A DNA stretch of 36,678 nucleotides from Gammaproteobacteria bacterium (GTDB lineage Bacteria; Pseudomonadota; Gammaproteobacteria; Steroidobacterales; Steroidobacteraceae). Below, one piece after another: positions 20,434 to 36,605 of the stretch. The stretch spans positions 1 to 36,678 of the forward strand of contig JAJFKF010000001.1 of assembly GCA_021773365.1 (NCBI GenBank), given 5' to 3'. The translations under genes were made by a program, and so were the position numbers. The notes beneath the pieces are model-generated. The model had not been told where the DNA came from and did no database searches. It worked only from the letters and a program-made list of their open reading frames with translations. The stretch's first letter is position 1, and the number at the start of each line of letters is the position of its first letter.

Positions 20434-20516
20434 ACTGATGCGCCTGCGGCAGGAGTGATGCAAGAGAAATACTGGCTGGCGCGGCTGGGATCGAACCAGC
20501 GACCCGCTGATTAACA
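20434..20516. repeat. Right 83-bp direct repeat (attR-like)
   Basis: Second copy of 19119-19201. It holds a stray copy of the last 25 bases of galU, the spacer, and the 3' half of the intact tRNA-Asn. Confidence 0.85.
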
Positions 20517-20547
20517 GTCAGCCGCTCTACCGCTGAGCTACGCGCCA
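20473..20547 (-). tRNA. tRNA-Asn (GTT)
   Basis: 75 bases including the encoded CCA. The acceptor TGGCGCG pairs with CGCGCCA; D-arm GCTC/GAGC; anticodon stem GCTGA/TCAGC with loop CTGTTAA, giving anticodon GTT; T-arm GCTGG/CCAGC with TTCGATC; discriminator G. It is convergent with galU and probably the integration target of the neighbouring insertion. Confidence 0.95.
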
Positions 20548-23972: not shown

Positions 23973-24047
23973 AGGCGCGTAGCTCAGCGGTAGAGCACCA
24001 CGTTGACATCGTGGTGGTCGGTGGTTCGATCCCACTCGCGCCTACCA
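23973..24047 (+). tRNA. tRNA-Val (GAC)
   Basis: 75 bases including CCA. The acceptor AGGCGCG pairs with CGCGCCT; D-arm GCTC/GAGC; anticodon stem CCACG/CGTGG with loop TTGACAT, giving anticodon GAC; the T-arm has TTCGATC and one G-T pair; discriminator A. It lies 16 bases before thrS. Confidence 0.95.
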
Positions 24048-26845: not shown

Positions 26846-28235
<1,390 letters not shown>

Positions 28236-28237
28236 GC

Positions 28238-30280
28238 ATGAAAGTCCCTTACTCATGGCTGTCTGACTGGATTGATCTGCCCTGGCCGGCGCGCGAGCTC
28301 GGCGAGCGGTTGACGCTGGCGGGATTCGAGCTTGAATCGCTTGATGACGAGGCAAACGATCCGGTGCTGAACCTGGCGGTGACGCCCAACCGGGGCGACG
28401 CCATGTCCGTGCTGGGTGTTGCACGGGAAATCGGGGCGCTGGCCGGACAGTCAGTGACGCTGCCGACCGCCGAACCGGTGCTGGCGAGCCGGGATGATAT
28501 TTTCCCCGTTCGCCTTGTCGCGTCAGCTGGCTGTGCCAGTTTCGTCGGGCGAGTTATTAAGGGCATCGACGTCAGTGCTGAATCGCCGCCCTGGCTGCGT
28601 GCACGACTGCAACAGTGCGGCATTCGCTCGATAAATCCGGTCGTCGACGTCACCAACTACACCATGCTGGAGCTGGGCACGCCCATGCATGGCTATGACC
28701 TGGGGCTGTTGCAGTCGGCAATTGATGTCCGCCTGGCCGCACTCGGTGAGACGCTACGCCTGCTTGACGGGCAGGACATCGAACTCGCAGGCGGTGAGCT
28801 TCTTATTGCGGACGCGGGTGGTCCCATTGGCCTTGCAGGGGTGATGGGCGGCGAACGTACGGCTGTCAGCGAACGTACCATCGATGTTTTTTTTGAGCTG
28901 GCATACTTTGAGCCGACGGTGGTTGGTGTCTGTGCGCGCCGGCATGGGTTGATCACCGACGCAGCGCAGCGATTCGAGCGTGGCGTTGATTACCGGATGC
29001 AGGAGTATGCAATGGAGCGGGCAACGCGTCTGCTCCTCGACATCGCCGGAGGCGAGCCCGGGCCCGTTACGACCAGCACCAGTGTCGGGCAGCTGCCGCA
29101 CATGGCTGCAGTGAGACTGCGCCGGCGGCAGCTTGATCGTCTCACCGGCGCCGATATTCCCGCAGCCCGGGTGCAGACCATACTGCAGTCCCTCGGTATG
29201 GCCGTGCAGGCGACGGAAGAGGGCTGGTCGGTCACCCCCCCCAGTCACCGCTTCGATATTGGCATCGAAGCTGACCTCATCGAGGAGGTGGCACGTATCT
29301 TCGGTTACGATGCCATCACTGAGCAGGATGCACGCATTGCACAGACCGTGGAGCCAGTGCCGGAGACACGACTGGAGGCCGTGAGGGCCTTGCAGATCCT
29401 GGCTGATCGCGGTTACCAGGAAGCCATCAGTTACAGTTTTGTCGATCCGAAATGGCAGCAGTTGTTGTTCGCTGACGGTGCTCAGCTGCAGTTGAGCAAT
29501 CCGATTGCCTCCGACATGAGCGCCATGCGAGTGTCATTGTGGCCTGGTTTGTTGACTGCTGTCGGCGACAACCTGCGCCGACAGCAGAAACGCGTGCGAC
29601 TGGCGGAATTCGGCAGCAAGTTCCTGCTGTCTGCTGAAGCCGGTTTGCGTGAGGTGGCCACGATCGCCGGTGCGGCGGTCGGTGAATTCATGCCACAGCA
29701 GTGGGGTGAGGGTGCGCGTGGCATCGATTTCTTCGATATGAAGGCCGATGTGCAGGCGCTGCTGGAGGCCACCGGTTGCGCCGATGAGTTTTCCTTCCGA
29801 GCCGAAGTGCTGGATTGTCTGCACCCGGGCCGAAGCGCGCGCATCCTGCGTGGCGAGCAGCCGGTCGGCTGGCTGGGGGAACTGCATCCGCAGAAGGCGA
29901 AGGCACTGGATTTGACATATCCGGTGCTGTTGTTCGAGCTGGAAACTGAAGCAGCTTTTGCTGGTATCCCCCCTGTTTTTACGGAAATTTCGAAGTATCC
30001 TTCCATTCGGCGTGACATTGCCGTTGTGGTGGATGAGGCGGTGGCGCTGGCTACGGTCAGCAGTGCGGTTCAGACCTCGGCAGGAGGCTTGCTGCGTGAG
30101 CTGGTGGTGTTCGATGTATACCGCGGCGCTGGGGTAGATTCAGGGCGAAAAAGCATCGCTTTAGGCTTGATTTTGCAGGAAACTTCCCGCACCCTTACTG
30201 ACTCGGATGCTGACCGGATCGTGGGCGCAGTCCTTGAAAAGCTGCGGCGTGAGTTCAACGCCTCAATAAGAGACCAATAA
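28238..30280 (+). CDS. pheT: Phenylalanine-tRNA ligase beta subunit lacking the tRNA-binding (EMAP-II/OB) domain
   Basis: 680 residues against about 795 in E. coli. The N terminus aligns ([33 protein letters not shown]) up to about residue 37. It then jumps straight to [24 protein letters not shown], which in E. coli comes about 115 residues later. The missing part is the whole tRNA_bind/EMAP-II OB fold. The rest is complete: B3/B4 editing domain ([29 protein letters not shown]), B5 ([23 protein letters not shown]), the core, and the FDX-ACB anticodon-binding C terminus ([25 protein letters not shown]). ATG 28238 lies two bases after the pheS stop; the in-frame TTG 28232 overlaps it. Confidence 0.95.
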
Positions 30281-32013: not shown

Positions 32014-32090
<77 letters not shown>

Positions 32091-34019: not shown

Positions 34020-36605
34020 GTGAATTCCCCCTGGATAGTACTTAAATTCGGCGGCACCAGCGTTTCTACCGCCGGAAACTGGCACAACATCGCCCGTATC
34101 CTGCACGCCCGGCTGGAAGAGGGATTGCGCCCGGTGATGGTGCACTCGGCACTATCCGGTGTGACGGATTTGCTGGAGTCCTTGCTGGTAGAGGCTCAAG
34201 GCGGCCAGTATCAACCGCTGCTGCAGAAAATCGAAGCGCGTCACCGAGCGCTGGCGCAGGAGCTGGGTGTAATAGCGGGCAGGGAGCTGCAAGTCCACCT
34301 TGACGATCTGGGGCAGATCGCTGCCGGCGTAGCCCTGGTGGGCGAGGTGAGCGACCGGATGCGCGCGCGGGTGATGGCCGCAGGTGAGATTATGGCTACG
34401 GTGCTTGGTGCGCTGTACCTGCGCTCCCAAGGTCTGGAAGTTTCATGGATCGATGCGCGTACGGTGCTGCTTGCCGACACGCGCCGTGGCGCTCACGCGC
34501 GGGCAGACGTGCTGTCGGCAATCTGCGATTTCGCGCCCGATCCGGAACTGGAGCGGCGATTGCATGGTCCCGGCCACGAGCAGCGCAATCTGGTTGTTCT
34601 CACCCAGGGATTCATTGCCGGCGATGAGGACGGAAACACCGTGTTGCTCGGCCGTGGCGGTTCAGACACTTCGGCGGCCTACCTGGCGGCCAAGCTGAGC
34701 GCCAGACGGCTGGAAATCTGGACTGATGTGCCGGGGATGTTCAGCGCCAACCCGCACCTGACGCCCACCGCGAGACTACTGAAAATACTCGACTACGATG
34801 AGGCGCAGGAGATCGCCAGCAATGGCGCCAAAGTGCTGCATCCACGCTGTCTGCTGCCGGTGCGCCAGTACGGAATTCCTCTGCATGTTTTTGCCACACA
34901 GATGCCGGACTATCCTGGAACCGTGATTACCCGCAATGCGGGGGAGGGCGCCGCGCAGGTCAAGGCGATTGCCATCAAGTCAGGCATTACGCTTATTTCC
35001 ATGGAAAGTCCGGGCATGTGGCATCAGGTGGGATTCCTTGCCGACGCCTTTCAGGTGTTCAAGGAGCATGGTTTGTCGGTGGATCTGGTCTCCACTTCCG
35101 AGACCAACGTCACCGTATCACTTGATCCGGGTGCCAACGCACTTGACGTGGGTATCGTCGAGGAGCTGGTGGCCAACCTGGAGAGGCTGTGCCGGGTGCA
35201 GGTCATCGGCCCCTGTGCAAGCCTGAGCCTCGTCGGTCGCAATATCCGCGCGATCCTGCACAAGCTCGGCGGCGCACTGGAATTGTTCGAAGAACAGAAA
35301 ATCTATCTGGTAAGTCAGGCCGCAAACGATTTGAATTTCACCTTCGTCATCGATGAGAAGCAGGGCGAACGGCTGGTACACCAGCTGCACGATCTGCTCA
35401 TTCGCGCCAGCGCCAACGATCAAGTGTTGGGGCCGACCTGGGAACAGCTGCACGCACCACCTGAAGAAAATACGACGCGCAGAGCTGCGCAGCCGTGGTG
35501 GCAGCAACAGCGCGAACAGCTGCTGCAGATTGCCAGCACGCGTCCGGCAGCTTTCGTCTATGACACCGGGACGTTGCTCAGTCGGGTCTCTGAGTTGCGT
35601 GCCATGCGCTCTATCGATCGGGTGCTGTATGCAATGAAGGCCAATTCCCACCCGCAGATCCTGCAGCGTGTGACGGCGGCCGGCGCGGGCCTGGAATGCG
35701 TTTCGCGCGGGGAGCTGGAGCGTGCCCTGACGGCGGGTGCCCGGGATATTCTTTTTACGCCGAATTTTGCGCCGCGCGAGGAGTATGCCTTCGCCTACGA
35801 AAGCGGCGCCGTTGTAACCCTGGATAATCTGCATCCATTGCGTGAATGGCCGGATATATTTCGCGGGCGCGAAGTGTTCGTGCGTGTTGATACCGGTCGA
35901 GGTCGCGGTCATCACGAGCACGTCCGAACAGCAGGGGCCTATTCAAAGTTCGGGATACCATTGGCGGAACTCGAGGAATTAGGGCAGTTAGCCCTTGCAG
36001 CCGGGGCGAGCATTGTCGGCCTGCATGCCCATCCCGGCAGCGGTATTTTTGATATTCACAGTTGGGCGGAGACTTTCGCGCAACTTTCCGGGCTGCGCCA
36101 GCAATTCCCGCAAGTACGCACGCTCAATATTGGCGGAGGCCTCGCGGTGCCGGAGCGTCCCGGGCAATTACCCGTGGATCTGCGGGCACTCGATGCGGTG
36201 CTGCTTGATGCCAGGTCCCGTCACCCCGACTGCAAGGTCTGGATGGAGCCGGGCCGGTACATCGCAGCAGAAATGGGGGTGCTGCTTGCTCGCGTTACGC
36301 AGCTGAAAGGCAAGGGCGAAGTGCGCTATATCGGCGTTGCCACGGGTATGAATTCCCTCATTCGTCCAGCCCTTTATGGCGCGCATCATGAAATCGTCAA
36401 TCTCACGCGCCTGGATGAGCCGGCACATGCCACATTCAATATTGTCGGCCCCATCTGCGAAACCGGCGACCAGCTCGGCGCCGACCGCCTGCTGCCGATC
36501 ACCCATGAAGGTGACATTCTGCTAATTGCCAACGCCGGCGCCTATGGTCACGCCATGAGTTCGAACTACAACCTGCGTGCCCCGGCAGAAGAGATTTTGA
36601 TCTGA
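34020..36605 (+). CDS. Bifunctional aspartate kinase / diaminopimelate decarboxylase
   Basis: 861 residues. It joins the first and last steps of lysine synthesis in one chain. The aspartokinase half (about 1-455) shows VLKFGGTSVST, LLGRGGSDTSAAYLA and two ACT domains (from about 315, with DLVSTSETNVTVSLD) that should sense lysine or threonine. The decarboxylase half (about 490-861) shows the PLP lysine in YAMKAN (Lys540), LHAHPGSGIFD, NIGGGLAVP, MEPGRYIAAEMG and GAYGHAMSSNYN. Both active sites look complete. GTG 34020 is the only possible start after an in-frame stop at 34011. Such LysC-LysA fusions are known in Xanthomonas and Xylella, which supports the lineage guess. Confidence 0.94.
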   Translation: MNSPWIVLKFGGTSVSTAGNWHNIARILHARLEEGLRPVMVHSALSGVTDLLESLLVEAQGGQYQPLLQKIEARHRALAQELGVIAGRELQVHLDDLGQIAAGVALVGEVSDRMRARVMAAGEIMATVLGALYLRSQGLEVSWIDARTVLLADTRRGAHARADVLSAICDFAPDPELERRLHGPGHEQRNLVVLTQGFIAGDEDGNTVLLGRGGSDTSAAYLAAKLSARRLEIWTDVPGMFSANPHLTPTARLLKILDYDEAQEIASNGAKVLHPRCLLPVRQYGIPLHVFATQMPDYPGTVITRNAGEGAAQVKAIAIKSGITLISMESPGMWHQVGFLADAFQVFKEHGLSVDLVSTSETNVTVSLDPGANALDVGIVEELVANLERLCRVQVIGPCASLSLVGRNIRAILHKLGGALELFEEQKIYLVSQAANDLNFTFVIDEKQGERLVHQLHDLLIRASANDQVLGPTWEQLHAPPEENTTRRAAQPWWQQQREQLLQIASTRPAAFVYDTGTLLSRVSELRAMRSIDRVLYAMKANSHPQILQRVTAAGAGLECVSRGELERALTAGARDILFTPNFAPREEYAFAYESGAVVTLDNLHPLREWPDIFRGREVFVRVDTGRGRGHHEHVRTAGAYSKFGIPLAELEELGQLALAAGASIVGLHAHPGSGIFDIHSWAETFAQLSGLRQQFPQVRTLNIGGGLAVPERPGQLPVDLRALDAVLLDARSRHPDCKVWMEPGRYIAAEMGVLLARVTQLKGKGEVRYIGVATGMNSLIRPALYGAHHEIVNLTRLDEPAHATFNIVGPICETGDQLGADRLLPITHEGDILLIANAGAYGHAMSSNYNLRAPAEEILI

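Follow-up and report, generated by a model that had tools for sequence, protein, structure and literature searches.

The window, that is, the whole 36,678-nucleotide stretch analysed here, comes from a 4.0 Mb Steroidobacteraceae genome (G000) and carries the genes for both subunits of phenylalanyl-tRNA synthetase (PheRS) in the usual order thrS–infC–...–pheS–pheT–ihfA, with thrS, infC, pheT, and ihfA assigned by NCBIfam and pheS by Pfam (Table 1). The pheS open reading frame opens at 27147, and the start that fits the family is 27207. Its product matches PF01409 (346.4 bits) and PF02912 (78.8 bits), the catalytic and N-terminal coiled-coil domains both being present, and the ATG of the adjacent pheT lies 2 bases past the pheS stop. 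Elsewhere, the window holds genes for tRNA-Asn(GTT) at 20473–20547, tRNA-Val(GAC) at 23973–24047, and tRNA-Pro(GGG) at 32014–32090, and a fused aspartate kinase/diaminopimelate decarboxylase at 34020–36605 (1181 bits to NF006515).

Table 1. Coordinates of the PheRS genes and of the domains of PheT in the window
Feature	Position	Strand	Basis
pheS, catalytic alpha subunit, 342 aa	27207–28235	+	Pfam PF02912 and PF01409; length by similarity
pheT, PheRS beta subunit without B2	28238–30280	+	Pfam; TIGR00472; open frame, 680 aa
N-terminal B1 segment, residues 1–39	28238–28354	+	Alignment with long and short relatives
Junction of B1 with the strand that precedes TPNRGD, where the OB domain is missing	28343–28370	+	Alignments
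B3/4 editing domain	28532–29050	+	Pfam PF03483
B5 domain	29111–29308	+	Pfam PF03484
Catalytic-like module (B6/B7; CLM)	29384–29944	+	Pfam PF17759
B8 anticodon-binding (FDX-ACB) domain	29990–30271	+	Pfam PF03147

The original prediction, made from the sequence alone, held that PheT lacks the complete tRNA-binding EMAP-II/OB domain, some 115 residues, through a neat domain loss that leaves the other PheT domains and PheS intact, and our analysis bears this out. The Pfam scan of the window PheT found no PF01588 (tRNA_bind, the B2 EMAP-II/OB domain), and B3_4, B5, CLM, and FDX-ACB were all matched far above their cut-offs. E. coli PheT (3pco_B) aligns in two pieces, residues 2–38 with 2–38, a weak alignment of 1.8 bits, and 154–795 with 40–679, so that the E. 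coli chain jumps from 38 to 154 over one window residue; what is missing is about residues 39–153, i.e. the ∼115 aa of B2. Against long relatives, the gap is clean and covers exactly the whole OB domain, and the junction itself consists of residues 36–44, DDEANDPVL. The window PheT scores 580.6 bits with TIGR00472 (pheT_bact, cut-off 402.65), with the match starting at residue 40; judged by these matches, it is a B2-less variant that the curated bacterial model still scores as PheT. PheRS beta of the archaeal/eukaryotic type has an uninterrupted B1, with no OB domain inserted in it, and we take TIGR00471 and PF18262 (PhetRS_B1) to be the models of that type. The window PheT differs from it, being bacterial by TIGR00472, far under the TIGR00471 cut-off (107 bits compared to 282.65), and not matched by PF18262 in the Pfam scan; six of 18 short PheTs do match PF18262 weakly, three of them over the cut-off. 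B3_4 (PF03483) has one match in the whole window genome (98.95% complete, 157 contigs), which is this pheT, and hence there is no second pheT; a full-length copy elsewhere, which would have spoken against the prediction, is ruled out. A predicted structure of the window PheT, with two relatives as alignment, had a mean pLDDT of 54.0 and a pTM of 0.36 and was not used.

Relatives were searched with the short N-terminus, a one-piece match spanning the junction being taken as the mark of a short gene. In the order, at least 22 of 396 genomes gave a spanning match (340 gave any match), namely G000 and G005 of the window's own family (f1), eight genomes of family f12, three of f6, and nine of f13, and at least 20 of 370 genomes did so in the class sample (completeness ≥90%; 361 with a match), spread over 12 family codes. 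Order and class together comprise 41 short genomes, which fall into 15 family codes; reading the junction in each of the 41 showed that the linkers differ. On whether the loss is clade-wide, the answer is divided: every pheT examined in some other families is short, but in the window's family, where 178 of 217 genomes matched, the one-piece match from residue 1 occurs in G000 and G005 only, among the matches listed. Genus g57 of f6 has both forms, with G305, G320, and G329 short, and G296, G301, and G335 carrying PF01588 in a 792-aa frame. In a phylum sample of 299 genomes, G000 alone spans the junction among the matches listed, a result that says little about other classes as the query was built from the short genes of this class.

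The domain searches agree with the junction reading. The spacing from the B1 motif to TPNR is 20–33 residues in 18 short genes and 136–138 in 43 long ones, as measured by a motif that examined 94 loci and missed 33, after which PheT extraction was redone by profile search. PF01588 is absent at E 0.001 from 18 of 18 other short PheTs, each of which has B3_4, B5, CLM, and FDX-ACB, and is present in the long control PheT L034 in the same Pfam scan. When 54 genomes were searched for PF01588, all 11 long-PheT genomes carried it in a frame of 792–816 aa, and none of the 42 taken as short carried it inside pheT (40 of these were read at the junction, G263 and G272 were presumed short from a single weak match, and G662 was left unclassified); the profile search of G005, G474, and G743 gave no PF01588 match at all. 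Among the class-level short genomes, 17 of 20 are ≤2.0 Mb and the others 3.0, 3.6, and 4.0 Mb, while the f12 genomes measure 2.2–3.1 Mb and the short f6 genomes 3.9–4.6 Mb, which shows that B2 loss is not confined to small genomes. Three further variants were seen among the relatives. In f50 genomes G475 (L112) and G691 (L116), PheT is further shortened to 654–657 aa, with the catalytic-like module ending at position 161–164 of 214. In drafts G047 (L077) and G305 (L066), pheT lies in two reading frames, through either sequencing error or a real change. In f98 genomes G631 and G716, relatives of the short-PheT genome G523, B2 is kept in an 800-aa frame with PF01588 barely passing (29.5 bits), and there the domain is perhaps on its way out.

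Two separate B2 losses have occurred inside the window's own family. Trees were built from the PheT cores, B3 to B8, without the trait's own columns, and G002 was dropped from them, with only 30 residues recovered. In the careful tree of 36 cores, four of them short, a 100/99 clade unites G005 with nine long genes and leaves G000 outside; the four short rows require three changes, and the starred branches force all three. The AU test rejects a tree in which G000 and G005 are held together (delta lnL 24.24, p-AU 0.0119), a grouping that was picked with the tree already in view, and a PheS+PheT tree again places G005 with G004, G017, and G073, apart from G000. When 93 cores were placed in a quick tree, 41 of them short and 52 long, eight changes were needed, at least six of them forced by starred branches; as 48 rows have uneven letter make-up, one row is very long, and few long relatives were sampled near the class-level short genes, six is to be read as a soft minimum.

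As the window genome is a draft of 157 contigs, an assembly error or collapsed sequence could have removed the 345 bases coding for B2. This is extremely improbable, since the junction is in frame and 40 further short genes, taken from assemblies other than this one, have it at an equivalent position in the structure, with differing linkers, and two short genes, those of G271 and G597, are on single-contig genomes. The absence of one PheT domain might also mean that pheT is decaying or being replaced, which is almost certainly not the case for a gene with a 680-aa open frame, other domains far over their cut-offs, no second copy, and an ordinary PheT/PheS ratio. The terminal PheT/PheS branch ratio is 1.74 for G000 and 1.86 for G005, in a range of 1.02–4.51 over 50 taxa, so the remaining part of PheT shows no faster decay. 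The branch ratios were also examined for a higher rate of evolution in PheT relative to PheS among short lineages, and none was seen. Finally, change counts on unrooted trees cannot separate gain from loss, and the B2-less form could be ancestral here with repeated gain of the long form, or short genes could have spread by transfer. We find this highly improbable, because the long form is present in E. coli, Thermus, all 11 distinct PDB PheT sequences matched, and nearly all sampled relatives, and it is unlikely that one domain was inserted several times into one position. In the PheT tree, G000 and G005 each fall within the family to which they belong, and the window PheT clusters with members of its family and order.

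The remaining question is whether the function of B2 was moved elsewhere or simply given up. PF01588 occurs elsewhere in G000 in a 743-aa frame, which we read as MetG, and in a free 123-aa protein (G000:C135:45756–46043; L002:1429–1800) that scores above the NF007495 and TIGR02222 cut-offs (CsaA/tRNA-binding-protein family). The search for a free-standing OB protein proposed in the original prediction thus had a positive result in the window genome, but the protein is CsaA-like, and several other short-PheT lineages have no free OB protein. That the OB function was transferred to a free-standing protein acting in trans is very unlikely, even though a free PF01588 frame of 107–143 aa, as in G000, is also found in ten of ten searched f13 genomes and in G597, G763, G565, G786, and G720. 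The free protein of G000 belongs to a separate known family; in all eight f12 and all three short f6 genomes, PF01588 matches once, to a frame of 667–892 aa (MetG size plus readthrough), and no free frame is matched; and in the long-PheT genome G021, beyond the matches in PheT and in the MetG-sized frame, PF01588 gives a third, weak one. As f12 and the short f6 genomes do without a free OB protein, short PheTs do not need one and are not regularly accompanied by one, and replacement in trans is not supported. As a separate observation, the sole PF01588 match is a free frame of 107–118 aa, not of MetG size, in f13 genomes G299, G241, G285, G252, G289, G303, G279, G047, G263, and G272 and in G597, G763, and G565, where the OB domain of MetG may have been split off or lost.

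All five editing residues are kept in the window PheT, H151, G204, E220, T240, and A242, which correspond to H265, G318, E334, T354, and A356 in E. coli numbering; H265, E334, T354, and A356 we take to be editing-site residues of E. coli PheT. G318 is described as an editing-site position of that protein (PMC4066437). Among the 93 cores compared, G318 is invariant (41/41 short, 52/52 long), H265 is kept in 39/41 short and 52/52 long (Gln in G508 and G741), and E334 in 40/41 short and 52/52 long (Thr in G741). T354 is found in 31/41 short and 52/52 long, with Ser in the ten other short PheTs (eight f13 genomes, G558, and G741) and in 0/52 long, and A356 in 29/41 short (11 Ser, 1 Gly) and 46/52 long (6 Ser). 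Changes at H265, E334, and T354 are therefore seen in short PheTs only, and the statement that editing is kept fails for part of the short PheTs; from the residues present, proofreading may have been lost in G741 (L122) and G508 (L117). ARAGORN finds a normal-looking tRNA-Phe gene with anticodon GAA in all 13 loci checked, that of G000 among them; the loci come from seven short genomes and at least six long or sibling ones. A changed tRNA-Phe that makes up for the missing domain was considered on the basis of gene presence and anticodon.

These changes raise the possibility that the loss marks relaxed proofreading, with more Tyr or m-Tyr at Phe codons being tolerated. In its favour are the restriction of the three altered positions to short PheTs, the small size of most class-level short genomes, the title of Roy & Ibba 2006 (as cited in PMC12494982), by which the domain 'contributes to the editing', and the normal growth of editing-dead G318W E. 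coli except with m-Tyr (PMC4066437). We nevertheless consider it unlikely, because the editing residues are kept in the window PheT and in at least 29 of 41 short PheTs at each position, and the window genome measures 4.0 Mb. Moreover, eight of the ten T354S carriers are in f13, so this change is mostly that of one family and would represent few events.

Both the dispensability and the natural absence of B2 have precedents. By its title, Roy & Ibba (2006, Biochemistry 45:9156, as cited in PMC12494982) calls the domain 'dispensable'. The B2-deleted E. coli PheRS of that study resembles the window form in having no B2 RNA-binding domain, but it was made in the laboratory, whereas the window form is natural and recurrent. 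A B2-less PheRS beta is reported in bacteria of the candidate phyla radiation (CPR; PMC5370408), which likewise naturally lacks the B2 OB domain; compared by description, that case differs in lineage and in being one example, presented with no analysis of editing residues or of the number of losses. Mycoplasma pneumoniae lives with a PheT split after the B1–B2–B1 unit (PMC12494982), which shows that this unit and B3–B8 tolerate separation; the Mycoplasma protein retains B2 and is cut behind the unit, while the window PheT has no B2 and forms one unbroken chain. The 11 distinct PDB PheT sequences matched are all 785–845 aa, and hence there is no B2-less PheT with a solved structure among them. 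In the literature searched, with most subscription papers outside the search, natural B2 loss is stated by PMC5370408 alone, as far as the sources go, and repeated B2 loss in this class was not found. As far as our searches go, then, it is the repeated loss in this class that is new, while the dispensability of B2 and its natural absence in CPR were already known.

Taken together, the results show a genuine loss of B2, in frame and confined to that domain, in a bacterial (αβ)2 PheRS that is ordinary in other respects and that very probably still charges tRNA-Phe and edits Tyr-tRNA-Phe. B2 is an OB-fold inserted in B1, in a B1–B2–B1 arrangement (PMC12494982), and its removal leaves B1 contiguous, which makes the loss both neat and repeatable. 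The original prediction saw in the loss a puzzle of how tRNA-Phe binding is maintained. This puzzle is mostly dissolved, as the anticodon is contacted by B8, the PheS coiled coil also binds tRNA, and editing is carried out by B3/B4 (PMC3275996); with B2 already called dispensable and missing in other bacteria, the mystery is smaller than first thought. We infer that the enzyme works and that the cost of the loss falls on editing. Charging of tRNA-Phe would most likely proceed as usual, with the anticodon presumably held by B8 and the body of the tRNA by the PheS coiled coil. Tyr-tRNA-Phe would most likely still be edited at the B3/4 site, and capture of released mischarged tRNA is perhaps weaker. 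Loss of editing in E. coli (PheT G318W) is described as having no measurable effect except m-Tyr sensitivity (PMC4066437). A more speculative and rather doubtful extension is that B2 loss is a recurrent switch to low-capture proofreading, in which recapture of mischarged tRNA-Phe is given up and raised Tyr or m-Tyr at Phe codons is tolerated or used, with the editing site then eroding in some lineages (G741, G508, and f13). The paired short and long siblings would allow the order of these events, B2 loss and editing-site erosion, to be tested.

B2 looks like a universal component of bacterial PheRS, although how far it is needed has been unclear, and in these lineages it has been lost without an obvious substitute. 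The clean and repeated losses, some of them in genomes of 3–4.6 Mb and with PheRS otherwise ordinary, provide natural sibling pairs for measuring the role of B2 in charging and proofreading.
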